Origin: Candidatus Raymondbacteria bacterium RIFOXYA2_FULL_49_16
GTDB taxonomy: Bacteria; Fibrobacterota; OXYB2-FULL-49-7; XYB2-FULL-49-35
NCBI GenBank assembly: GCA_001789205.1
Contig: MFYT01000073.1
Coordinates: 1 to 64,000, forward strand
Reading direction: 5' to 3'
DNA: 64,000 nt
Position 1 is the first letter of the stretch, and each line of letters starts with the position of its first letter. The translations under genes and the position numbers were made by a program. Of the stretch, positions 39,747-58,476 are shown in pieces. The notes under the pieces are model-generated. The model worked only from the letters and a program-made list of their open reading frames with translations. It was not told the origin of the DNA and made no database searches.

Positions 39747-42155
39747 TTAGAATTTAATCACAGTCTCAATGTTCAACCGCTTGGTGAGCGTCAGGTCATA
39801 GGGATCTGCCGTTGTTTCGTCCAGAACATAGGTATACTGGTTGTCCCAGTAGAGCACAATAGACGCGGCGATCTGGAATCCGATCTTGTATCCCATGAGC
39901 ACATAGGGCGTGGGTTCAAAAAAGCTGTCGTAGATGGGATCACCGCTGGTTGTGGCGTCGATTACCCAGGTACCTATGTTTTTCTTATAATAATAGGCTG
40001 CCACGTCCTCAACCTTCACCTTACGCAGGACAGTCCTGATGGTTTCGCCCACGGAGGCTGTGCCGTTTATGCTCTGATCGCTTGAGGGCAGACCCATAGA
40101 CGTGCTATGGTTGTCTGTGATGGTCATATACTGGTATCCGGCGCCGACATCAATAATGTTGGCAATATTGAGACCCGCGTGGGCAAAAACACCGTTCATT
40201 GAAGTGCTGTCGCGGCTGAGGAGCGAAATCTCCTTTGCCATCAGAGTCGAATCATTGATCTGCCTCATGCGGTCAAGTTCGTAGGTCTGGTCAAAATATT
40301 CACCCTGGAACATGTCGACAAAGTGGCGGTATTCCACATTGATTTTCAGGGGTCCAATGCCCATGCCAACACCGGGAAATGCCAGGCCCCAGCCGTGGAC
40401 TTTGATTGGATCGTACTGGGTTGAGTCATCGACCGTTGTGGCCCACTGGCCATAGGCGATGAGTGAAAGGAATTTCTTGTTGATTATAGGAAGCCCTATA
40501 TCAGCGCCTATAATTGAGAAGGGGTCGGTTCCTTCGGTGTATTGCCTCAACTGGTCGACTTTGTTCTGGTTTTTCGCCTGATCGTCGGCGATGAAAGTGC
40601 GCACTGCCTGTGCCAGGGCCGGATTGCTCATTGTATCACGGTCCGAGTAATCTGGCTTGACAATAGCCCAATCCTTATCAACAGGCTCTTTGTCCAACAG
40701 ATCTGGTACCTTGTCGTCGTCGCGGTCGCGGAGAGAAGCGCGCTGGTTTAGATCGGTTACGTAGGATGCGCCAACGGTCAGGTTGCTGATAATGGGCATG
40801 CCAAGAAAAGAGATGGGTTTTACCGAGAGCCGTGTTCCCACCAGGGCGCCCTTGTTCTGGAAATCCTGAAAATTGTTAACAACCGCCTGCACACCAATGC
40901 CAAGGGCTGAAATGTCGTTCAGTTCAAAATGAAGCCCCATTTTCCTGATTTCAGGATACTGGAGTGAATTTGCATACCCGGACATTATCATGCCATACCC
41001 CAGGCTAACACCATCCAACGAGCCAACCTTGATGTAGAGTTTTTCGCCCGGATGACCGAACCTGAGGTAATAGATTTTTCTTTGGAGAGAATTGAAGGTT
41101 TGAGTCGCATTGTCGAATTCCCAACCTGTTTTATCGAGTTCGCCCTTGTCGTTCAGAAAGAGTTCGATGTCGAGACAGATGCCGAATTTCCATATGGGAA
41201 TATCGGGCCGCAACGATATGCGCGTCCACTGCTGGTCGCCCATGGTGACCGAGCCCACGGAAAGGCCCCACGAGATCCCGCCTTTTTTTCCCGCAGGCTT
41301 GGGTTCTTCTTTCTTTTCCTCTTCTTTTCCTTGGGCTGCTTCGTCTCCCTTGCCAGCGGCTGTCTGGTCTGCGGCGCCTGCTTCGGGTGCTGCTTCAATA
41401 GGCTGCTCTAGTGGGCTGCCAGCCGCTGCCATAGATGCAGATGCTCCGCCCTCTCCTTCGCCTGGAGCTGCGGCGTCTGTGGCAGGAGCCTCTGGTTCAG
41501 CGGCCTGCGCGATTGGTTCCGAATATGCCTGGAACTGGGTTGCTCCCCATTCTTCCAGACGCTTGAGCGCGTCGGGTGAGAGTGCCGCCGGAGGGGTGGG
41601 TGCGGCATTGGCAAGTACCTTGGAAATCTCACCTGCTTTGACAAATATCTCTTCGCCCAGGGTGCCTTTGACCGCTATTTTGCCTTGTACCACGGCAAAA
41701 GAGGCTGCCGAACCTTCCTTGCATCCTACAGCAAAAGCAGTGCCGCGGATTGCGGCCGTTGCAGTGGGCGTATTGATGGTAAAGGCGTCTGCTCCAAGAA
41801 GCACGCTTTTGATAATAAAAAAGACGCTGCCGTTTTTCTGGGTCACGCTCTTTTTTCCCAGCAGTGCATCCAGTTCAAGAGTGGTCTCTTCCTTCAGCTT
41901 GAAAGTGATTCCGCCGTCAGAAGTTTTGAGTTCAGCTTCCGAGCCAACGGCTGTGCGCACAATGTCCTTTTCACTGAGCTTCATGTTTATTTTTATAGCT
42001 TCCCATTGTTCGCTGCCTGCCTTTTTAACTTCAACAGTACCGTTCATAAACGATACGATGAGGTCGTTGGCCGGTTGCTGGGCCGTTTCAGGTGTTGGTT
42101 GCTGCGCGAAAGACCAGGTGCATAAAAGGGCGATTACATAGATAGTACGGAACAT
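39747..42155 (-). CDS. FecR-domain / outer-membrane beta-barrel hybrid protein
   Basis: 802 residues from ATG 42155 (AAGGAGGAAGC upstream). Signal peptide MFRTIYVIALLCTWSFA; a FecR-like domain (~27-185: VSFMNGTVEVKKAGSEQWEA, GSEAELKTSDGGITFKLKE, TATAAIRGTAFAVGC); a low-complexity Ala/Glu/Pro-rich linker (~195-300); and a long C-terminal region of alternating strands (LSVGSVTMGDQQWTRISLRP, LYIKVGSLDGVSLGYGMIMS) ending in RLNIETVIKF, a typical barrel with terminal aromatic Phe. A thrombospondin-like acidic loop (DRDDDKVPDLLDKEPVDKD) lies at ~485-505. It is inferred to be a surface-anchored porin-like protein with a periplasmic FecR sensor or wall-interaction module. Confidence 0.75.
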   Translation of the reverse strand: MFRTIYVIALLCTWSFAQQPTPETAQQPANDLIVSFMNGTVEVKKAGSEQWEAIKINMKLSEKDIVRTAVGSEAELKTSDGGITFKLKEETTLELDALLGKKSVTQKNGSVFFIIKSVLLGADAFTINTPTATAAIRGTAFAVGCKEGSAASFAVVQGKIAVKGTLGEEIFVKAGEISKVLANAAPTPPAALSPDALKRLEEWGATQFQAYSEPIAQAAEPEAPATDAAAPGEGEGGASASMAAAGSPLEQPIEAAPEAGAADQTAAGKGDEAAQGKEEEKKEEPKPAGKKGGISWGLSVGSVTMGDQQWTRISLRPDIPIWKFGICLDIELFLNDKGELDKTGWEFDNATQTFNSLQRKIYYLRFGHPGEKLYIKVGSLDGVSLGYGMIMSGYANSLQYPEIRKMGLHFELNDISALGIGVQAVVNNFQDFQNKGALVGTRLSVKPISFLGMPIISNLTVGASYVTDLNQRASLRDRDDDKVPDLLDKEPVDKDWAIVKPDYSDRDTMSNPALAQAVRTFIADDQAKNQNKVDQLRQYTEGTDPFSIIGADIGLPIINKKFLSLIAYGQWATTVDDSTQYDPIKVHGWGLAFPGVGMGIGPLKINVEYRHFVDMFQGEYFDQTYELDRMRQINDSTLMAKEISLLSRDSTSMNGVFAHAGLNIANIIDVGAGYQYMTITDNHSTSMGLPSSDQSINGTASVGETIRTVLRKVKVEDVAAYYYKKNIGTWVIDATTSGDPIYDSFFEPTPYVLMGYKIGFQIAASIVLYWDNQYTYVLDETTADPYDLTLTKRLNIETVIKF

Positions 42156-42297
42156 GCTTCCTCCTTCAATAATTGGGTGTGGAATAAAGATACTTTCAGA
42201 GGGCGGCGATGTCAATGGCTGGGCGTTGATCACACCCTTTGAGAACTCCATAGAAGGGTGAGATCAGGGTATTTAAGATATGTTTTATATGCCGTCG

Positions 42298-42866: not shown

Positions 42867-45800
42867 ATGGCAGCGACACTTCCTCTAACTGGAAATGGAG
42901 ATATTACACAGAATAGCACAACGCCGGCAAATGGGACTTACAAGCTTTCAAATGCGACAGCCGGAAACAATGGTAATTTATTGACCATAGAGGGCTCTAA
43001 TGGTAATGGGACCGATAGAAATGGAGGAAATATCCTGATAAGGCCTGGTGTACGAACAGGCAGCGGAACAGACGGCCTTCTTGAGGTGGACGGCAACATC
43101 AAACTTACAGATCCGGCCAATGATCGCGTGTGGGCCACGGAGAAAACATTTAACGTGCTGGATTATGGGGCTGATGGGTCGTGCACAAATAATTCAAGAA
43201 TGCAAATACAGGATGCGATAAACGATGCGGCCAATAGAGGAGGCGGCGTGGTGTTTATTCCATCCGGAACATACAGGATCGAGAGCGTGACGGGAACGGT
43301 AACAACCACAAGCACCACTCAGCTCATTGATGCAAGTGGGAATTTTTCAGCAAATAATATCAAAGTCGGTGACGTTGTTATCAATTACACGCGGGGATGC
43401 GCAGCTGTTGTTGACAGTATTGTGTCGACAACGACACTGGCTCTTCGGCAGATTGATTCTACAAATCGCATTATTGGTAACCTTGGCAATAACCAATTCA
43501 CGCAAAACGATAAATATTGCATTGCTGGTCTTGTAATTAAGCGTAATGTCCACCTGAAAGGACAGGAGGGCAGCCATTGGAAGGCTAATTTGAAAGCATA
43601 TGGCGTCAGTTCTTTTACCGTGATCACGGCAGACCCGTCCGATACTTGTGGAATAGGATATCTTCCGTTTAAGATATCGGATCTGACCATAACACGGGAT
43701 GATACTGTGGGTCAATGGAATACCGCATGGATGATGAAGGGATTCGGGGATGGCACGACTTATATCGATATCACCAAGACTGGGTCAATGGTGCAATACG
43801 CATACAATTCGGGAACCGTCCCAAATTTTGCCACAAATGGCATGAAATCTGGAGATATCGTTGTCATCAACGTTTCAACTTTTAACGATATGAATAATGG
43901 CACCTTTATTGTATCAAATGTAACAGATGCGTATTTTGAGGTGGTGAACAGTGATGGGGTTGATCAGGCCACGCGGGTCTTGAGCAGTGCTTCGGACATT
44001 CAAAGCGCATGCAGAGACTACGATCACGCTATAAACGCATTTAATTATCGAATCTGGAGTTGGGGTATTGCCAGTCCGTGCAATTTTGCTACAATAGAAC
44101 GTGTTTTAATTTGCGGTTCAATAAATCCCTACGCCTTCACGACCGGCATACGTTTAGCCTGCTGGTTTGATGCCAGTATCGTTGATTGTATGGTGAGCTA
44201 TTGCAGGACCGGCATCGATATTTCAATGCCGGGCAGCCAATCTAATTCTGTGAATATACTGAATTGCCAGGTGTTTGATAATCTTACCGGTATTCGGTTG
44301 GCCGGAATGAACAATAAGGTCATCGGCGGCCAAATTATGTCTGACATCCGGGTAAATACAACATTTATATCCGTGGACAAGGATGCCTATGCAAGTCTTC
44401 CACCTACACACACGAATTACATTTGCGGAGTTTCATTTGAAGGGGCAGCGACGGATATTATAGGCATTCATCTCAAACCAGGCTCAGAGGCAACAACAGT
44501 TACCGGATGCTGGTTTAATCTTGCAGGGCCCGGAATCAGACCTGCGCCAGGAAAGATAGAGATAAAAGACAATTCCAATGGACGGAACAATATTCTAGCC
44601 AATTATTATTGGGGAAGTTATTGTGGCGACAGTAATGGCTGGGCAAATGCTGATTGGAAGGCGGCAAGCAATCTCATGATAACCGGAGAAGGAGCCAGGA
44701 ATAACTTGGCCAGCGTGGACAATGCGGGTTCGAGTACAACCGTACGTTCCAAATGGCTGGCCGGGACAGGAAACGTGAATCCGTCAAAATTAATCTCAAA
44801 CGGTGCAAACAGCAACAATCTTCTCATATCAGGAGGAACAAGTGATTTTGCTAAGGTTTGGCCCGGCTGGCAAATATGGGTCAATAATAATGTCTATAAT
44901 GTTGTTCAAAAAATCAGCGACAGTAGTGTCATTATTGATCAGCAAGTGACCATTGCGCCGGCGCAAGCATGGAAGTTCCGACCCAATAAAAGCGCTGGAT
45001 ACAGATATGTCGTTGCCGGAGGCTCCACGGCCTTTGCCGCGCTCGATTATGGGCACAGAGTGCATTTTGTCACACTCAATTATGATGCAACTGTATTATA
45101 TAAGATAAATGCTTCACATATAATCATAACCGATACGGCTTCGATGCTTGGTACGAACGACACTTTCCAGTTTAAAGTCCCCATTTTTAAGAATATTCCT
45201 TTGCTTAGTCAGATTACCATCAACACAGAACCCGTAACGACAAGATATCTGACGGCAATTACTGATGACTTCACGGCAACCATGGATGGGGATAATGTGG
45301 ATCTGAGTACCGGGTATTCATATTCCATAACGCGTAACGATGCAAAACTGGAATTGAACGGTGGCGCTAGCACAAAGATGTTTATCCGGGCTAACATGGA
45401 CAAAAACCGTCCCGGCTTGCTGTTCAATCGTTGGACTGGAAGCGGAGACACCTACAACAATGCAAGGATTGGGCAGGATGATGCGAGGTCGCAAGGCACG
45501 TTTGACCTGGTGTTTGAGACCGGAACAGATGCAGGAGGCAATAAAGACAATGTTGAGGAAGTGGTGAGAATCACTACCACAAAGAGGGTCGGCATAGGCA
45601 CCACTTCTCCCGGCGACACTCTTGATGTGAATGGGGACATTCGGGTCCGTGGCGCTGATATCAAGGATGCCGGGGGTACTGCAAGGATCACGTTAACAGA
45701 CAATGGCCGGTTAGATCTTAAGGAAGACGGTGGTGCTGTAGTGTTGAGTGTTAGCACGGCGGGCAACGTAGGAATTGCGACCACGGCCCCTGTGTCAAAA

Positions 45801-46109
45801 CTGGAGGTTGCGGGATCATTGGGGGTTAAGGTAGTAACGAAAACCTCCGCCTACACAGCGGCTGACGAGGCAGTTATTCTTGCTAATGCTTCGGGTGGCG
45901 CTTTTACTATCACTCTGCCTCAAGCCTCTACTGTCCCTGGCCGGGTGTATACTGTTAAAAAAATTGACAATTCCTACAACGTGACAATCCAAGGGTATGG
46001 TGGAACTGAATATATTGACGGAGCCACTACCCTTGTTCTATCAAGCCAATGGGTTTCCAAGATGATTGTTTCAAATGGCACCCAATGGTATGTAATTGCT
46101 GATCGCTAA
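42867..46109 (+). CDS. Phage tailspike-like protein with pectate-lyase-type beta helix
   Basis: 1080 residues, GAAAGGGATTT before ATG 42867. No signal peptide or lipobox: it starts MAATLPLTGNGDITQNS. Residues ~95-500 are a Pectate_lyase_3 right-handed beta helix (FNVLDYGADGSCTNNSRMQI, QDAINDAANRGGGVVFIPSG). Residues ~810-1000 are tail-fibre-like repeats (GIGTTSPGDTLDVNGDIRV, GNVGIATTAPVSKLEVAGSL). The last ~75 residues (FTITLPQASTVPGRVYTVKK, NVTIQGYGGTEYIDG, SNGTQWYVIADR) are the C-terminal cap common in phage tail fibres. The product would be a trimeric glycan-binding or depolymerising spike. No other phage structural gene is nearby, so release or export is unexplained; it may be a domesticated phage gene. 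Confidence 0.8.
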   Translation: MAATLPLTGNGDITQNSTTPANGTYKLSNATAGNNGNLLTIEGSNGNGTDRNGGNILIRPGVRTGSGTDGLLEVDGNIKLTDPANDRVWATEKTFNVLDYGADGSCTNNSRMQIQDAINDAANRGGGVVFIPSGTYRIESVTGTVTTTSTTQLIDASGNFSANNIKVGDVVINYTRGCAAVVDSIVSTTTLALRQIDSTNRIIGNLGNNQFTQNDKYCIAGLVIKRNVHLKGQEGSHWKANLKAYGVSSFTVITADPSDTCGIGYLPFKISDLTITRDDTVGQWNTAWMMKGFGDGTTYIDITKTGSMVQYAYNSGTVPNFATNGMKSGDIVVINVSTFNDMNNGTFIVSNVTDAYFEVVNSDGVDQATRVLSSASDIQSACRDYDHAINAFNYRIWSWGIASPCNFATIERVLICGSINPYAFTTGIRLACWFDASIVDCMVSYCRTGIDISMPGSQSNSVNILNCQVFDNLTGIRLAGMNNKVIGGQIMSDIRVNTTFISVDKDAYASLPPTHTNYICGVSFEGAATDIIGIHLKPGSEATTVTGCWFNLAGPGIRPAPGKIEIKDNSNGRNNILANYYWGSYCGDSNGWANADWKAASNLMITGEGARNNLASVDNAGSSTTVRSKWLAGTGNVNPSKLISNGANSNNLLISGGTSDFAKVWPGWQIWVNNNVYNVVQKISDSSVIIDQQVTIAPAQAWKFRPNKSAGYRYVVAGGSTAFAALDYGHRVHFVTLNYDATVLYKINASHIIITDTASMLGTNDTFQFKVPIFKNIPLLSQITINTEPVTTRYLTAITDDFTATMDGDNVDLSTGYSYSITRNDAKLELNGGASTKMFIRANMDKNRPGLLFNRWTGSGDTYNNARIGQDDARSQGTFDLVFETGTDAGGNKDNVEEVVRITTTKRVGIGTTSPGDTLDVNGDIRVRGADIKDAGGTARITLTDNGRLDLKEDGGAVVLSVSTAGNVGIATTAPVSKLEVAGSLGVKVVTKTSAYTAADEAVILANASGGAFTITLPQASTVPGRVYTVKKIDNSYNVTIQGYGGTEYIDGATTLVLSSQWVSKMIVSNGTQWYVIADR

Positions 46110-47992: not shown

Positions 47993-48838
47993 TTAACCTT
48001 TTATATTATCAATCTTACATTTTTTAGAACCAGGAAAGAACTGAACATTCACAATATATGCCTGGTTGGATTCCTTGTCATCCACCGCAATTTCCATAAG
48101 CCGCTGCTTGAATTTCTGTATCTCGCGTTTTACCAGGCCAAACCCCTTGTCCGAAATCCCAATGACCAGGCTTGACACATCCCGCTGGTTGGGCAGGTAG
48201 TCTTCAATGGCTTCGCACCCCAGTTCCGCATACTGGCCGTTCATTTTCCGCACAGCCGGTGAAACAACCTCAGGATCTGTGGTAATAACCGGGTCTCTTT
48301 GAATATAGGTGCCGTTTTTTGTGCGCTTGATGAATCCCAGCGAAACAAGCAGCGCCACGCTCTCTTTGGCCTGGGTGGTTGTGATAAAAGGCCTGACACA
48401 ACTCGCAAGGGCTGTAAAATCGTCTTTCCACTTGCCAGTGCACGCCAATTCGCGCATAATGGGATTGTACCAGTTGGAGTAATACGCGAAAAGATCTGCT
48501 GGAACAATTACCGGTTTTACCCGGGGAATGGCGCCGCGAAGCAATGCCAGAAATTCGGCCCGCGCCTTGTGGGTTTTTGCCTGGTTGAAGTTGACCAGGG
48601 CCGTAAAATATTTCTTTTCAGCGTCGTCCGTGAGGCAAAGGCCCCGTATAAAGGCCGGAATGGTTGACAAGGAAAGATTGCGTCTGCCATGTATGACCTC
48701 AAGGACAAGCGAGTGTGTCTTGAGCCCCGCGATTTTGACAAAGGTCCGGTATGAATACAGTGTATTGTTTTTTTTCTCGTTTTCGTAGAAATCACGGATA
48801 TACTGGCGGTAGTCCATGTAGTGGAAGAGGTGCTTCAT
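47993..48838 (-). CDS. TIGR02147 family protein
   Basis: 281 residues. Full match to the TIGR02147 pattern: HYMDYRQYIRDFYENEKK, YRTFVKIAGLKTHSLVLEVI, HGRRNLSLSTIPAFIRGLCL, AEKKYFTALVNFNQAKTHKAR, and the C-terminal VSSLVIGISDKGFGLVKREI. The family is strongly expanded in Fibrobacter and occurs in a few other phyla; it has a HTH-like N-terminal third and is thought to be regulatory, but no member is well characterised as far as I know. Its presence is the best single taxonomic pointer in the window. No partner gene is evident; it may regulate the NHL lipoprotein downstream. Confidence 0.88.
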   Translation of the reverse strand: MKHLFHYMDYRQYIRDFYENEKKNNTLYSYRTFVKIAGLKTHSLVLEVIHGRRNLSLSTIPAFIRGLCLTDDAEKKYFTALVNFNQAKTHKARAEFLALLRGAIPRVKPVIVPADLFAYYSNWYNPIMRELACTGKWKDDFTALASCVRPFITTTQAKESVALLVSLGFIKRTKNGTYIQRDPVITTDPEVVSPAVRKMNGQYAELGCEAIEDYLPNQRDVSSLVIGISDKGFGLVKREIQKFKQRLMEIAVDDKESNQAYIVNVQFFPGSKKCKIDNIKG

Positions 48839-49221: not shown

Positions 49222-50976
49222 CTACAAACCAGGAACCAGGCCTGCGGTTGCCGCCAGAATAAGCAGAAAGGGCGCGTAAAAGGTGAAGTCGAGTACCAGA
49301 CTGAACACTGCCCAGCCCGCAAGCTTGTTCTTTATGAACAGGTGATAGACCAGTAAAAGATACGCAGGGCATACCAGAAGCAGAAGGCTGTTTGCGGGAA
49401 TGAGGCTGGTGAAAAAGCCTGCGATGGGAACCAATGCGCACAGAACAAGGAGGGGATAGGGAAAAAGAAGCGATAGTTTTTTACCCAATACAATAGGCAG
49501 GGTTTCTCGGCCTACTATGTTGTCGCGCTGAATGTCGTACAAATCGCGGAATATGGTCCGGATAAAAACCAAAATGAAAATAAAAAGAAAGGCCACTATC
49601 TCGCCGGAAGAAGGCAATGAAGTGAACAGGCTGACGCCCGCATTGGGCAGCACTGCGCAGATTACCGCCCATGCCATGGCAATGCCGATGTCTTTTGACA
49701 GCGTAATGTCTTTCAGGCGCCTGTTGCGGAGAAAGGGCAGGTTGTTTTTCGGCAGCAGTTTCATGTGGTACAATATGCCGGCAAAACTGGCCACCAGAAG
49801 CAGGATGAATTCGCTCAATCCCGACTGGTAGGCAAGCGCAATGGACAGCAAACCCGTGAGCATGCAGAGCAGAATGGAAATTTTACGGTGACGGTAGATA
49901 TAATCTGTCTTGAATATCTCCTGGTACTGGTTTTCCGTGATATTGGTCAGATGGTTCAGAATGTACATTGAATTGATGTAGAGCCAGGCAATGGCCATGT
50001 GCAGGTAATTCGCGGACATGCCCTGGATGTACGATGCGGTCCACGCGGCAAGCGCCGCGCCAAAGGCAAGGTAGATATTGAAACTCACGGCTATTTTTAC
50101 CGACTCGATGAATATCCTCTGGTACAGGGGTCGCTGATGGTCCGCGATTTCACTCAGCCGTTCGTAAACCCGGTTAAGCAGCCATGACGGAGTGGAGGCG
50201 CCGGACGCTATGGCCACACTCCTGGTTCCCGTGAAATCAGCAGGATTCAGCTCCGCCTCGGTCTCGATGTGGAACACATGCGTACATGAGGCGCGCGCAA
50301 GGTCGGCAAGCCGTGTTGAATTGGCGCTGTTTTTCCCGCCCACAACCACGACCGCGTCAGAGCTTTTTGACAGTGCAACCACCTCGGCTTGGCGCTGGTC
50401 AGTGGCGCGGCAGATGGTGTCGAAGATTGCCGCGTCCGCATATTGCGCACGGATGCGTTCCTTGATCCGTTCGTATTCACTGAGATTCTGTGTTGTCTGT
50501 GCGACCAGGCAGACCTTGCCGAGGCCAGGCAGTTTTCCAATCTGGTCCGGCGTCTGGATCAGGTATCCCTTGCCCTTTGCGCAACCAAGCAGGCCCACCA
50601 CCTCGGCGTGGCCTTTGTCGCCGAAAATGACAATGGCGTATCCCTTGGCGTAATACTGTCCGATGATTTTGTGGATACGTTTTACATGGGGGCATGTGGC
50701 GTCAACGATGCGCACAGGCCGGGCCTCCATCTGGCCGCGGATGTCCGGAGGTACGCCATGAGTCCTGATGACAACCGTGGATGCGGTTACTTCGGCCGGT
50801 GTTTTCACTGTGGTGACGTTTTTTTTCCGGAGCAGCTCCATGGTCTGGGGATTGTGGATAAGGGGGCCCAGGGTCTCAATGGGTTCATCTGATTCGTGCG
50901 CGTGTTTGAGAATGGTGTTCATGGCCATACGCACGCCCATGCAGAAACCCGATGCCTGCGCAATGGTTATCCTCAT
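49222..50976 (-). CDS. IspH (HMBPP reductase) fused to a UbiA-like prenyltransferase domain
   Basis: 584 residues. Residues 1-~280 are a complete IspH: cluster ligands Cys12 (GFCMGV), Cys95 (DATCPHV) and Cys189 (DTICRATDQRQ), catalytic-type Glu in GHAEVVG, AQTT, GGKNSANSTRL and ASGASTPSW. It reduces HMBPP to IPP and DMAPP. Residues ~285-584 are a membrane domain with about eight helices of the UbiA superfamily: second Asp motif intact (DLYDIQRDNIVGRETLPI, Asp478/481/485), but the first motif reads N341-HLTN-ITEN in place of NDxxDxxxD, so its acidic residues are replaced. The product is inferred to link C5 supply to membrane prenyl transfer; a DGGGP-synthase-like role is suggested by the coupled G1P dehydrogenase, but the altered motif leaves activity open. 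The ATGA start overlaps the upstream gene. Confidence 0.88.
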   Translation of the reverse strand: MRITIAQASGFCMGVRMAMNTILKHAHESDEPIETLGPLIHNPQTMELLRKKNVTTVKTPAEVTASTVVIRTHGVPPDIRGQMEARPVRIVDATCPHVKRIHKIIGQYYAKGYAIVIFGDKGHAEVVGLLGCAKGKGYLIQTPDQIGKLPGLGKVCLVAQTTQNLSEYERIKERIRAQYADAAIFDTICRATDQRQAEVVALSKSSDAVVVVGGKNSANSTRLADLARASCTHVFHIETEAELNPADFTGTRSVAIASGASTPSWLLNRVYERLSEIADHQRPLYQRIFIESVKIAVSFNIYLAFGAALAAWTASYIQGMSANYLHMAIAWLYINSMYILNHLTNITENQYQEIFKTDYIYRHRKISILLCMLTGLLSIALAYQSGLSEFILLLVASFAGILYHMKLLPKNNLPFLRNRRLKDITLSKDIGIAMAWAVICAVLPNAGVSLFTSLPSSGEIVAFLFIFILVFIRTIFRDLYDIQRDNIVGRETLPIVLGKKLSLLFPYPLLVLCALVPIAGFFTSLIPANSLLLLVCPAYLLLVYHLFIKNKLAGWAVFSLVLDFTFYAPFLLILAATAGLVPGL

Positions 50977-52823
50977 GGCAGCAGTCCCTTCAATTCGGAA
51001 ATAATGACTTTCAGAATAGCCGGGTTGTATCCCGCGATCTTAAAGGTATTATTCACCAGGAATGAAACGGTAGGCTCTGTATTAAACACGGAATCTGAAA
51101 GGGCGACGGCCGCGGAAAAGAGCGTCTCTCCCTCCTTGCTGTGGGAACAGGCCCTGATTCTTACGGTATCGATATCGAGCTGGTGCGCGCACGCGTGCCA
51201 TTCATCCGCGGGTTCTGGCGTCCTGGTTTCAAACCGCTGCTGCACATCAAATCCGCGGCACAGTGCGTAGTCATAGGCTTTTCGCTTGGGATAGAGGGCA
51301 AAGACACACAACTGACGGCTGCTTTCGCGGATTTCACCCGGTCCATTGAGACTCTGGAAAGCGTTGGTCCATTCTCCTTCCCGGGTTTTTTTTTGCGCGC
51401 GGTACGCATAGGGATGCAAGACTACGAGTGTCGCGGGAAGAGAATCAAAGATTACGGTTTCGAATGAACGCAGCATTTCAACAAAAGGAGGATCCTGGAA
51501 AGAACCCATGATCTCGAGGCGGCCGGGCATGCGTATTCTGCTGAGCAAGTGGTATGATTTCACGACACTCTGGTTGATGCGGAGCTTGTTGCCAGCGGGG
51601 GTAAACGTAGCGCTGATTTCCGCGAACCGGGGATCGGCCGTTACAGCGCTATCAAACAGAAAGGCCGGATATGCGGCAAGACCGTAGTGCGCAATGGTCT
51701 CTTTGCCGCGGGTGGCGTTGATATCGATAAAATCGAAACGCGCCTCGGGAAAACGGCGCCGTATTTCCATAATAATGTTCCCGGTATGGCAAGTGGGGCA
51801 CGATTCGTCGTTGACCACGGTCACGGTAAAGGAGCGGGCTTTGGTAAAGACGCACCGCGCCTTTTTTGTCATGGGATCGCGGCACACGCCGCTTTTACCC
51901 GCTTGCCTGCAGTCAGTGTCGTATCCGCACTCGGGGAACGCTACGCACGGCCCTGTCCGGGGTGCGTTGTCGCAGAAGAAGCGCTCCACCGGATAGGCGG
52001 TTATCGCTCCTTCGTATTCCACGCCATTGATGAAAAGCGTGGGTGAGCCGTTTACCTTGCGTTTTTTCGCCTCGCGTATGTTCAGGGTAAACAGGGAATC
52101 GCCTTTGCGCGAATCGACATATGCGGCAATGGCGGATATCGCCGGGGCGGAAAAACCCGCGGTGCGCGCGGCTTTTCTCCAGTCAGAGTCAATGTCCTGG
52201 TTCCTTTTCCGCAGATAATCGAGCAGCTTGTCAGGATAGAAGGCGGCTATCACGGTTTGCCGCATGTCTTCGAGCACTTCATTGAGCCCGTGCAGGCTCA
52301 CAAAGCGATCCGTGCCCTCCATGTTGCCCGAGGCCTGGCATTTGCTATCAACTGAGGCGCCTTCGGGCAGGGGTTGGCCGGGTTCTTCAGCCTCTTGCTC
52401 GCCATCGCGCGCATGGGCGATGAAATAGAGGTTGAAGACGATGTTTTTTTTCCACGCACGCAGGAGGGGCAGCAGTTCATTGACCGCGGCAATGCCATAA
52501 GGACAGTAGCTCATGATAAAGAGGTCGAGGGTGACAATGCCGTTTTTCTTGCGTACAGGCGCATTCTTTGGTCCATGGCTGAAAAGGGCGTCGGATATCC
52601 GGGTGATATTCGCGGGAGTTGGCGCAAGCACGTGGCGCACGCCATTACCATGACACGTTTCGCACGATTGGTGTGCGGGGTTGTTGCTCCATTCGGCATA
52701 GATGTCCTCGTGGCAGCGCTGGCATTGACCGCTGCCCGCCTGCACAGGCTTTTCCTGCACTGCGTTTCCCATACACCAGAAAAAAAGGACAAGTGCGGCA
52801 AGGGGAGCGGGGGCCATGCTCAT
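50973..52823 (-). CDS. Exported multidomain redox protein: two CxxCH haem sites plus thioredoxin-like domains
   Basis: 616 residues. N-terminal signal/anchor (~5-22). Two c-type haem motifs, CQRCH (34-38) and CETCH (54-58), form a small cytochrome module. A DsbA/GILT-like domain follows with SYCPYG (Cys107, no resolving Cys) and the cis-Pro loop NGSPTLFING (258-267). A cysteine-rich segment (Cys284-Cys324, eight Cys such as FPECGYDTDCRQAGKSGVC) resembles a disulfide-linked knot. A second thioredoxin-like domain has CPTC (342-345, followed by His, so a third possible haem site). It is translationally coupled to egsA upstream and to ispH-ubiA downstream (ATGA both times). It could be a periplasmic electron carrier or thiol reductase. 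Its place between two lipid genes is unexplained. Confidence 0.75.
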   Translation of the reverse strand: MSMAPAPLAALVLFFWCMGNAVQEKPVQAGSGQCQRCHEDIYAEWSNNPAHQSCETCHGNGVRHVLAPTPANITRISDALFSHGPKNAPVRKKNGIVTLDLFIMSYCPYGIAAVNELLPLLRAWKKNIVFNLYFIAHARDGEQEAEEPGQPLPEGASVDSKCQASGNMEGTDRFVSLHGLNEVLEDMRQTVIAAFYPDKLLDYLRKRNQDIDSDWRKAARTAGFSAPAISAIAAYVDSRKGDSLFTLNIREAKKRKVNGSPTLFINGVEYEGAITAYPVERFFCDNAPRTGPCVAFPECGYDTDCRQAGKSGVCRDPMTKKARCVFTKARSFTVTVVNDESCPTCHTGNIIMEIRRRFPEARFDFIDINATRGKETIAHYGLAAYPAFLFDSAVTADPRFAEISATFTPAGNKLRINQSVVKSYHLLSRIRMPGRLEIMGSFQDPPFVEMLRSFETVIFDSLPATLVVLHPYAYRAQKKTREGEWTNAFQSLNGPGEIRESSRQLCVFALYPKRKAYDYALCRGFDVQQRFETRTPEPADEWHACAHQLDIDTVRIRACSHSKEGETLFSAAVALSDSVFNTEPTVSFLVNNTFKIAGYNPAILKVIISELKGLLP

Positions 52824-53857
52824 GGGAAAACCGCGTGGTAGGCTTTTTCAATGGTTTTGACATCAGTCTCATCAAGAATCGAGTAGCGGCCGCGCCGCAT
52901 TTCAGGCGCTTTGCGTACCGAGCACAGGAATTCCTTGCGCGAAAGCCCCAGGGCTGCGGGTGTCGCGGCCATGGAAAACCGGGTGAACATTCTGCGGACA
53001 GCGTCGGTTTTTATATGGTGAAGGTGCAAGGTAAAAAGCGTCGCAACCCCCACCTGCTCACCGTGGCTTGAGCCTCTGTGATAGAGCAGGTCAATGGCAT
53101 GGCTGATCATATGTTCGGCGCCCGAGCTGGGCCTGCTGCTGCCAGTAATGCCCATGGCAATGCCACTCATGATAAGGCCCTCAATGAGGGTCTTCAGGAG
53201 TGCGGATCCATTGAGCGCCGCAGAGCGGTGCTCAATGAGCTGAATGGCCGCGTTACGGGAAATTGTTTCGGCAAAATCGTCGATGCGGTCCTTGCCTTTG
53301 TGCCAGGCAAGACGCCAGTCCGCGCAAGCGGAGAGGTTGGAGACCAGATCGCCCATGCCGCTCCTAATGGTGCGTACCGGTGATTTTTGTATGACATCGA
53401 GGTCCGCGATGACGGCCATGGGCATGTGGGCGTTGAGGCTGCGCGTACGGCCCTTGCATTTGATCACCGCGATGGGTGAGGAGATGCCATCATTTGATAC
53501 GGCCGTGGGTATGCTGATGAATCCAACCGCTTTTTCCGACGCGGCGTATTTTGCCACGTCAATGGCCACTCCTCCTCCCACGCCAATGACCGCGTCAGGC
53601 GCGCCGCGGTCGATCGCCTTTTGGACCACGGCGGTTTCAGCCAGGGTACTGTCGCGTACAATGAGGATGTCGCTGGGACATCCGATTTCCCGCGCCACGG
53701 AGCGGGCAATGGAATGGAGCGGTTCGTCGCCGGTGACAATGAGGCATTTCTTGAGAAAGACGTTGCGTTCTGACAAAAGCGGCCTGATGCGGGTGAGCGC
53801 GCCGTGATCCACGCACATGAACACGGGGAGCGGGACGTCTCTGCGGAGGATGGCCAT
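52820..53857 (-). CDS. egsA: sn-Glycerol-1-phosphate dehydrogenase, archaeal/AraM type
   Basis: 345 residues of the iron-alcohol-dehydrogenase/DHQS superfamily. NAD(P)-binding GVGGGVAIDVAKYAA (92-106); PTAVSNDGISSP (118-128); likely metal ligands Asp170 (GMGDLVSN), His249 (SSGAEHMISHAID) and His265 (GSSHGEQVG). The enzyme reduces dihydroxyacetone phosphate to sn-glycerol-1-phosphate, the backbone of archaeal membrane lipids; Bacillus AraM uses the same reaction with PcrB. The start codon is abutted by the U-tract of the terminator at 53858-53893, so there is no ribosome site and little room for a promoter. The stop overlaps the next start (ATGA). Confidence 0.9.
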   Translation of the reverse strand: MAILRRDVPLPVFMCVDHGALTRIRPLLSERNVFLKKCLIVTGDEPLHSIARSVAREIGCPSDILIVRDSTLAETAVVQKAIDRGAPDAVIGVGGGVAIDVAKYAASEKAVGFISIPTAVSNDGISSPIAVIKCKGRTRSLNAHMPMAVIADLDVIQKSPVRTIRSGMGDLVSNLSACADWRLAWHKGKDRIDDFAETISRNAAIQLIEHRSAALNGSALLKTLIEGLIMSGIAMGITGSSRPSSGAEHMISHAIDLLYHRGSSHGEQVGVATLFTLHLHHIKTDAVRRMFTRFSMAATPAALGLSRKEFLCSVRKAPEMRRGRYSILDETDVKTIEKAYHAVFP

Positions 53858-57103: not shown

Positions 57104-58288
57104 TCATTTGAACAGCTTGATCGCTTCGAGGATGAGCGCGGGCTGGTTTTTCACCGTGAGTTTCAGCAGGTCGATATATTTGAGTTTCGACGGGTCTTTG
57201 TTGATAAGTACCTCGGCCGCGGCCTCGATTGTGCTGTCGTTTACCTTGAGCACCGCGCGCTTGAGCAGATACGAGCGTTCCTGCTGTTTGCCCACGCCGT
57301 TTTTCCAGCGCTTCTCGAACACGGACAAACGTTTTTCCGATACATCGCCTTCTGACAATGCCTCACAGGCGATGGAGGCGGCGAGCTTTGCTGAATTCAT
57401 GGCAAAGGTAATGCCTCCGCCGTCGAGACAGTTGGCCATGCGCGCGGCATCGCCCACGACCATGAACCCGCCTGCCACTAATTTTTTGAGATAGAGGCCC
57501 AGGGGTACTGAGCCCACGGTGAGCGCGAGCGGTTTGGCCTTGGGAAAGCGGAGCGTCATGAAGCGGTTGAGTATCTGGACGGGCGATTCCTTCCCCGCAG
57601 CTTTTGCCGTGATGCCCAGGCCCAGGTTGGCTGTGCCGTCGCCCTTGGGAAACATCCAGGCATAGCAGTCGGGAACGATGTTTTTGCCAAAATGGAGTTC
57701 GGGAAACCCCTCGGGCGATTCAACGTTCGTGACCCGGTATTGCGCGCAGATGCCGATATCGTTCAGGTCGGTGATGGTGGAATTGAGACCCGCCAATTTG
57801 GCCATGCGCGATTCAATACCATCAGCGGCAATGACAATGCGGCACCCCACATCGATCGCCATGTCGTGATGGAGCACCTTGACCCCGCAAATGGCGTCCT
57901 TTTTCCTGAGAAGCCCCACTGCCACGGTGCCGACACGTATGTCAGCGTTGTATTTCGCCGCCATCTGGACAATGGATTTCTCCATCACAGGACGGTTGAG
58001 CATGTACGCCGGCTCCGGACAGGGCACGTTTACGCGCACCCCCTTGGGAGATACAAAGGTAACACCGTTGACCGTATGGGTTATCCAGGAGGGATCCGGA
58101 TTGATGGCAAGGGTAAGCCCGCGCTTTCCCACAAGCTCGCCGCATCGGACTGGAAGGCCGATCTCCCGGTCCTTTTCGAGCAGGAGCGTGGAAAAGCCGT
58201 TTTCGGCGAAAGTTTTTGCGGCAATGGCGCCTGCAGGCCCCGCGCCCACAACAATGGCGTCGTAAAATTGTTCAAGGGGCAGTTTCAT
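57104..58288 (-). CDS. Geranylgeranyl reductase family flavoprotein
   Basis: 394 residues from ATG 58288, coupled (ATGA) to the ferredoxin gene. FAD-binding Gly15-x-Gly-x-x-Gly20 (VVGAGPAGA) with Glu38 (LLLEKD), the family hallmark PVRCGE (46-51, with its conserved Cys), CYAWMFPKGDGTANLGLGI, and the second FAD motif VVGDAARMANCLDGGGITFA. Archaeal members saturate the geranylgeranyl chains of archaeal lipids using reduced ferredoxin; other members act on chlorophyll or menaquinone side chains. With egsA and ispH-ubiA 3.4 kb away, a lipid role is the favoured inference; MenJ-like menaquinone reduction is the main alternative. Confidence 0.9.
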   Translation of the reverse strand: MKLPLEQFYDAIVVGAGPAGAIAAKTFAENGFSTLLLEKDREIGLPVRCGELVGKRGLTLAINPDPSWITHTVNGVTFVSPKGVRVNVPCPEPAYMLNRPVMEKSIVQMAAKYNADIRVGTVAVGLLRKKDAICGVKVLHHDMAIDVGCRIVIAADGIESRMAKLAGLNSTITDLNDIGICAQYRVTNVESPEGFPELHFGKNIVPDCYAWMFPKGDGTANLGLGITAKAAGKESPVQILNRFMTLRFPKAKPLALTVGSVPLGLYLKKLVAGGFMVVGDAARMANCLDGGGITFAMNSAKLAASIACEALSEGDVSEKRLSVFEKRWKNGVGKQQERSYLLKRAVLKVNDSTIEAAAEVLINKDPSKLKYIDLLKLTVKNQPALILEAIKLFK

Positions 58289-58476
58289 GCGTCCTCGAGG
58301 GTGAGTGCCCGGAAAGGGCAGATAATGACGCAGCGGCCGCACGCGGTGCACTGGTCCTGCTCAATTTGCATGGACGTTTCGAGAAGGATAAGCGCGTCGG
58401 TTTTGCACACGGCAACGCATGAACCGCAGAAATCGCACTTTTGGATATCGAAAGTGATGGTTTTCTTTTTCTTCAT
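58285..58476 (-). CDS. 2[4Fe-4S] ferredoxin
   Basis: 63 residues. Cluster 1: Cys14, 17, 20 and 24 (CDFCGSCVAVC); cluster 2: Cys43, 46, 49 and 53 (CTACGRCVIIC). Each fourth Cys is followed by the usual hydrophobic or Pro residue. The stop overlaps the start of the reductase, so the two proteins are made together. Archaeal geranylgeranyl reductase can use such a ferredoxin as electron donor, which fits this pairing. An N-terminal Lys-rich stretch (MKKKKTITF) is basic but not a signal peptide. Divergent from lptF (83-bp gap). Confidence 0.93.
   Translation of the reverse strand: MKKKKTITFDIQKCDFCGSCVAVCKTDALILLETSMQIEQDQCTACGRCVIICPFRALTLEDA

Follow-up and report, generated by a model that had tools for sequence, protein, structure and literature searches.

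IspH-UbiA fusion proteins in Fibrobacterota and other bacteria combine an intact IspH with a UbiA-fold domain whose first aspartate motif is degenerate

INTRODUCTION

IspH is the last of the enzymes making isoprenoid building blocks, and a family in which the same chain continues into a UbiA-like domain of about 300 amino acids at the C terminus was published in 2015 by Rao et al., with 47 sequences, all from sulfate reducers (PMC4746011). Prenyltransferase activity of the UbiA half was inferred from two DxxxD repeats, a described but not strictly defining feature of the family, and this is the only functional inference for IspH-UbiA that we found in print. The same study proposed membrane localization of the protein and reported that expression of a full-length active IspH-UbiA failed; its IspH-RPS1 fusions likewise carry a C-terminal partner on IspH, but one made of ribosomal protein S1 repeats rather than a membrane domain (PMC4746011).

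The UbiA half has two further points of reference. The prenyltransferase AfUbiA no longer bound GPP with any one of the substitutions N68A, D72A, R22A, or K146A, whereas alanine mutants at D198 and D202 bound GPP 45-fold and 21-fold more weakly (PMC4106721). Fungal UbiA-type terpene synthases carry the motifs NxxxG/AxxxD and QDxxDxxxD and need a tyrosine equivalent to Y139 of AfUbiA (PMC9835599).

Here we analyze an IspH-UbiA fusion from Candidatus Raymondbacteria bacterium RIFOXYA2_FULL_49_16 (Fibrobacterota), encoded in a stretch of 64,000 nucleotides that we call the window (contig MFYT01000073.1, positions 1 to 64,000; Table 1). The fusion itself, which the initial annotation had presented as a finding, is not novel, having been published in 2015 (PMC4746011). 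What is new, judged by the literature that we searched, is that the first aspartate motif is lost family-wide and that the family reaches past the sulfate reducers.

Table 1. Features in the window, with positions, strands, and supporting evidence or remarks
Feature	Position	Strand	Evidence or remark
IspH-UbiA fusion ORF	49222..50976	-	584 aa, ATG start, sole IspH found in genome
IspH (LytB) domain, residues 1-276, cluster Cys C12/C95/C189	50149..50976	-	Pfam LYTB, 3dnf, family invariants
UbiA-fold membrane domain, residues 277-584	49225..50148	-	Pfam UbiA, AlphaFold2, Foldseek
Degenerate motif 1, residues 341-349, NHLTNITEN	49930..49956	-	Sequence and alignments
Intact motif 2, residues 478-485, DLYDIQRD	49522..49545	-	Sequence and alignments
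Fusion-family signature G489-R490-E491-T492 (G[RK]ET)	49501..49512	-	75-protein alignment
DsbA-like domain protein, two CxxCH motifs	50973..52823	-	Upstream, co-oriented, overlaps fusion start by 4 nt
Glycerol-1-phosphate dehydrogenase-like gene	52820..53857	-	PRK00843 model E 5e-83, under that model's curated cut-off
Geranylgeranyl-reductase-family gene	57104-58351	-	Within window
FecR-domain protein	39747-42251	-	Near fusion
Pectate-lyase-like protein	42867-46109	+	Near fusion
TIGR02147 (Fibrobacter paralogue family) protein	47993-48838	-	Near fusion

RESULTS

A search of the host genome (5.4 Mb, 100% complete) found no IspH besides the fusion protein. Its N-terminal half is matched by Pfam LYTB over residues 3-274 (E 4e-86) and by the solved IspH 3dnf (E 9e-61), and it can be aligned to both 3dnf and the Escherichia coli IspH, with its cluster cysteines matching those of the solved protein. 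All three cluster cysteines and the active-site His, Glu, Thr, Ser, and Asn positions are present, and C12, C95, C189, H41, H123, E125, T162, S217, N219, and S261 are invariant in 45/45 fused proteins. By these residues the IspH half is intact, and HMBPP reductase activity is predicted for it. The C-terminal half has the UbiA fold: the Pfam UbiA match is above cut-off (residues 368-550, E 5e-12; profile positions 70-234), beginning beyond motif 1 because the profile is covered only from position 70, and Foldseek of an AlphaFold2 model of the domain (pLDDT 92.7, pTM 0.91) returned 4tq3 (AfUbiA), 6m31 (MjDGGGPS), and 4od4 (ApUbiA) as the best PDB entries (E 1e-4, prob 1.00), which together place it by fold in the UbiA superfamily. 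A full-length model (pLDDT 91.5) matches IspH crystal structures over its N-terminal half and also matches UbiA structures.

Within the UbiA domain, the acids expected from NDxxDxxxD are replaced by His342, Asn345, and Asn349 in motif 1 (N341-H-L-T-N345-I-T-E-N349), whereas motif 2 (D478-L-Y-D481-I-Q-R-D485) keeps every acid of DxxDxxxD. Measured against the canonical prenyltransferase pattern, the protein thus lacks motif 1, N(D)xxDxxxD, and has the DxxxD of motif 2 (D481, D485). It shares with AfUbiA, ApUbiA, and MjDGGGPS the fold, motif 2, the motif-1 Asn, and the catalytic-site Tyr, but it differs from them in the absence of D72 and D76 equivalents, an additional segment ahead of the LKDIPxS[KR]D loop, the G[RK]ET signature after motif 2, and TM-scores of only about 0.5-0.7. 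In the alignment, the window lineage is more divergent than most, with Arg484 for Gly and Thr425 for Pro. The initial annotation, made from the letters of the window, had proposed a complete IspH with all three cluster cysteines joined to a UbiA-fold domain, with an intact second Asp motif and a first motif in which three acids had become His, Asn, and Asn; each of these readings was confirmed, the last one exactly.

The annotation had also named a risk, namely, that a sequencing error joined two genes and that other assemblies would show a stop near residue 280. We found no evidence in support of such an artifact, and it is refuted with near certainty by the occurrence of the fused architecture in many independent assemblies and in the published set (PMC4746011). 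A fused chain of 55% identity (L008/L074), from another genome of the same taxonomic order, has no internal stops, and dozens more fused proteins were found.

The degeneracy of motif 1 is family-wide and not peculiar to the window protein. Of 75 fused proteins, a single one keeps the N-D-D of NxxxDxxxD. The Asn corresponding to AfUbiA N68 persists in 71 of them; at the D72 position, Gly is found in 27, Ser in 16, Asp in 15, and Asn in 6, and at the D76 position, Asp in 32, Thr in 15, and Ser in 6. The replacement varies by clade, being mostly NSLxSIExT in Fibrobacterota, mostly NxxTGxxxD in the bacterial order sampled below, and NRFLDxxxS in another Desulfobacterales group. Degeneracy in 74/75 members stands against the two DxxxD repeats of the published description, and family-wide loss is unreported in the literature that we searched. 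The nearest standalone archaeal relatives by profile score retain NKLTDxxED, which makes loss of motif 1 inside the fused family plausible but not proven by tree, since the placement of the archaeal group was not resolved in a tree that included it. Motif 2 is not invariably intact either, being broken in 12 of the 75.

Despite the loss of motif 1, the pocket is still under strong constraint, as far as alignments can tell. Tyr403 (AfUbiA Y139), Ser427, Asp485 (D202), Gly489, and Thr492 occur in all 75 fused proteins, as does Lys or Arg at position 428, while Arg473 is present in 73 and Glu491 in 71. Among 45 fused proteins, pairwise identity averages 49.5% for IspH and 32.6% for the UbiA domain; within the latter, active-site segments average 54.9%, the remainder 27.6%, and the three positions of the motif-1 acids 20.6%, a contrast that is descriptive because the segments were picked from known UbiA biology with the alignment already seen. 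Glu491 and Ser427 were not seen at the equivalent positions in the genome's own UbiA paralogs or in the archaeal relatives, and one may guess that they stand in for motif 1. By eye, the alignment has no conserved Arg in the fused domains at the position of the DGGGPS RPxN motif and AfUbiA R22.

A search for the same domain pair in other genomes, suggested with the initial annotation, found it widely. In the 168 Fibrobacterota genomes searched for long frames spanning both domains, the fusion occurs in 9 of 14 family groups, and the remaining five (f5, f10, f11, f13, f14) have an IspH without the UbiA domain. When genome contigs were scanned, a query consisting of just the window protein gave no relatives; an alignment of the UbiA domain gave 68 loci, in 52 of which the chain also includes IspH. 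Taken by record titles as deposited, several of them those of MAGs, the fused loci belong to Fibrobacterota, Desulfobacterales, Zixibacteria, Glassbacteria, Planctomycetota, Gemmatimonadota (Gemmatimonadales), Muiribacteriota, and Acidobacteriota (Holophagaceae). A strong match was present in 123/146 sampled genomes from the order of a Desulfobacter-labeled locus (L084), taken to be Desulfobacterales, and 30/30 loci fetched from it were fused. In the genome holding a Planctomycetota-labeled locus (G173; L070), the domain occurs twice, each time in a long open frame (C26:12015-12902 and C61:3029-3913). No standalone copy as close as the fused ones was found within the phylum; the next standalone UbiAs score about E 1e-18, whereas nearly all fused proteins score <1e-93, the one exception being G154 (1e-29). 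A search for viral relatives gave nothing significant. The fusion therefore extends well beyond sulfate reducers.

Like the published proteins, the window protein has IspH and a C-terminal UbiA-like domain on one chain and comes from an anaerobe whose genome has a separate MenA-like gene; unlike the two-repeat proteins of sulfate reducers, it has motif 2 only. In a 38-row IspH tree, all 26 fused proteins, the window's included, form one 100/100 clade among the sequences sampled here, apart from 11 of 12 unfused Fibrobacterota IspHs. The phylum holds two well-separated IspH lineages, one fused and one unfused. The twelfth unfused IspH, that of G026, sits on a long branch inside the fused clade. 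At its locus (L132:1819-2685) there is a fused-type IspH of 289 aa but no UbiA domain, and the next gene is HIT-like. This appears to be a natural loss, which indicates that the domain is dispensable. One fusion and one loss would be the simplest reading, with the caveat that placement on a long branch is not secure. On this sequence evidence, the window protein is a member of an inherited IspH-UbiA family.

The fusion gene is the last in a run of three with 4-nt overlaps, after the glycerol-1-phosphate (G1P) dehydrogenase-like and DsbA-like genes. Among the fused loci examined, adjacency to these two genes is found only in the window, and for that reason it was not used to assign a substrate. 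A conserved operon was rejected as a clue to the substrate: no neighbor is conserved across clades, and the recurrent ones differ from clade to clade (ABC transporter, DusB-like, and ParA/ParB-like genes, named from reading the sequences). The genome has four other UbiA homologs. L001 has intact motifs and scores best with PRK12884 prenyltransferase and DGGGP-synthase-type models, L002 is MenA-like, L003 is a decaprenyl-phosphate phosphoribosyltransferase above cut-off, and L004 is a prenyltransferase of no assigned type. One GGGPS/PcrB gene (L037), the G1P dehydrogenase-like gene, the DGGGPS-like L001, and the geranylgeranyl-reductase-family gene are candidates that together cover the main steps of an archaeal type of ether-lipid synthesis, in agreement with a report on the FCB group (PMC7852524).

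DISCUSSION

Our results suggest that the UbiA domain of the fusion is unlikely to be either a canonical two-Mg prenyltransferase or a passive anchor, since motif 1 is lost family-wide while the pocket remains constrained. The explanation that we prefer, and hold with moderate confidence, is a membrane-docked IspH with a conserved, putatively noncanonical pocket for an isoprenoid (di)phosphate. The UbiA domain would hold IspH at the cytoplasmic face of the membrane, and a pocket rebuilt on motif 2, Tyr403, Ser427-Lys/Arg428, Arg473, and G[RK]ET would still bind its ligand, probably through a single metal site. The ligand might be processed by noncanonical chemistry, as altered transfer or terpene-synthase-like ionization, or else be sensed or retained for IspH; active chemistry is slightly ahead of binding only. 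These results favor the initial suggestion that the metal geometry or the substrate differs, together with a likely membrane placement. Its alternative, that the domain serves as a membrane anchor for IspH, stands in part: membrane placement is likely, whereas a purely passive anchor is disfavored by conservation that is much higher in the cytoplasmic pocket segments than elsewhere in the domain, even though one lineage has this type of IspH without it.

The most substantial rival, which we consider possible but somewhat less probable, is that catalysis was lost and the domain is a pseudo-prenyltransferase, a membrane anchor or scaffold that keeps IspH near enzymes using IPP and DMAPP, perhaps with a regulatory isoprenoid site. 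It would fit the absence of residues without which AfUbiA no longer bound GPP (PMC4106721), the missing Arg at the RPxN/R22 position, the lineage without the domain, and the membrane localization proposed earlier (PMC4746011), but the conserved Tyr403, Ser427, Asp485, and G[RK]ET and the high identity of the pocket segments would not be expected of a mere anchor. That the domain is instead an ordinary two-metal prenyltransferase coupled to IspH, for example, a DGGGP synthase, seems very improbable: the intact motif 2, a weak NCBIfam similarity to GGGP geranylgeranyltransferases, and the neighboring G1P dehydrogenase gene are outweighed by the family-wide absence of motif 1. A role with G1P or GGGP, raised in the initial annotation through its proposed assays, found no support, as the separate, intact L001 makes it unlikely for the fusion domain, genes for GGGPS and DGGGPS-like proteins are found throughout the phylum whether or not a genome has the fusion, the G1P dehydrogenase adjacency is not conserved, and the domain scores 29.4 bits with a curated DGGGPS model whose cut-off is 353.

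We also weighed an activity like that of UbiA-type terpene synthases, in which the tri-aspartate of motif 2 would ionize and cyclize a prenyl diphosphate supplied by the fused IspH; this overlaps in part with our preferred explanation, and in its own right we judge it unlikely. The window protein was rejected as a direct member of this class. It shares with Tps1A, Fma-TC, and EriG (PMC9835599) the DxxDxxxD of motif 2 and the conserved Tyr, but its motif 1 reads NxxxNxxxN instead of NxxxG/AxxxD, Arg instead of Gln precedes motif 2, and IspH is fused to it. For the family, the argument is that NxxxG/AxxxD is combined with DxxDxxxD in 27 of the 75 fused domains, most of which come from the sampled order, and that the Tyr403 equivalent is also required by the synthases (PMC9835599). 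Yet the window's domain is among 35 that have an intact motif 2 and neither form of motif 1, and the residue before motif 2 is usually Phe, not Gln. Candidate synthase-like standalone UbiAs from Chloroflexus, Archangium, and cyanobacteria (L095, L098, L099, L101, L102, and L104), which have NQxxGxxED (NQxxGEAED in one variant) and QDLRDIEGD, branch apart as a 100/100 clade, and presence in most genomes of one order fits housekeeping better than secondary metabolism. A broader and more speculative possibility, in our view doubtful, is that IspH-fused UbiA domains form a separate enzymatic class that gave up the motif-1 metal site, handles prenyl diphosphates through motif 2 and G[RK]ET/S[KR] with IspH as the supplier, and makes an unrecognized but widespread isoprenoid product in mostly anaerobic bacterial groups.

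In these bacteria, the enzyme that completes the isoprenoid building blocks is joined to a UbiA-family membrane domain. As one of the two DxxxD motifs from which its function was deduced is absent almost family-wide, the published idea of a standard prenyltransferase needs testing. What was presumed to be a Rosetta-stone enzyme thereby becomes a testable question, namely, whether the UbiA half is a noncanonical isoprenoid enzyme or a membrane docking or sensing domain for an essential Fe-S enzyme.
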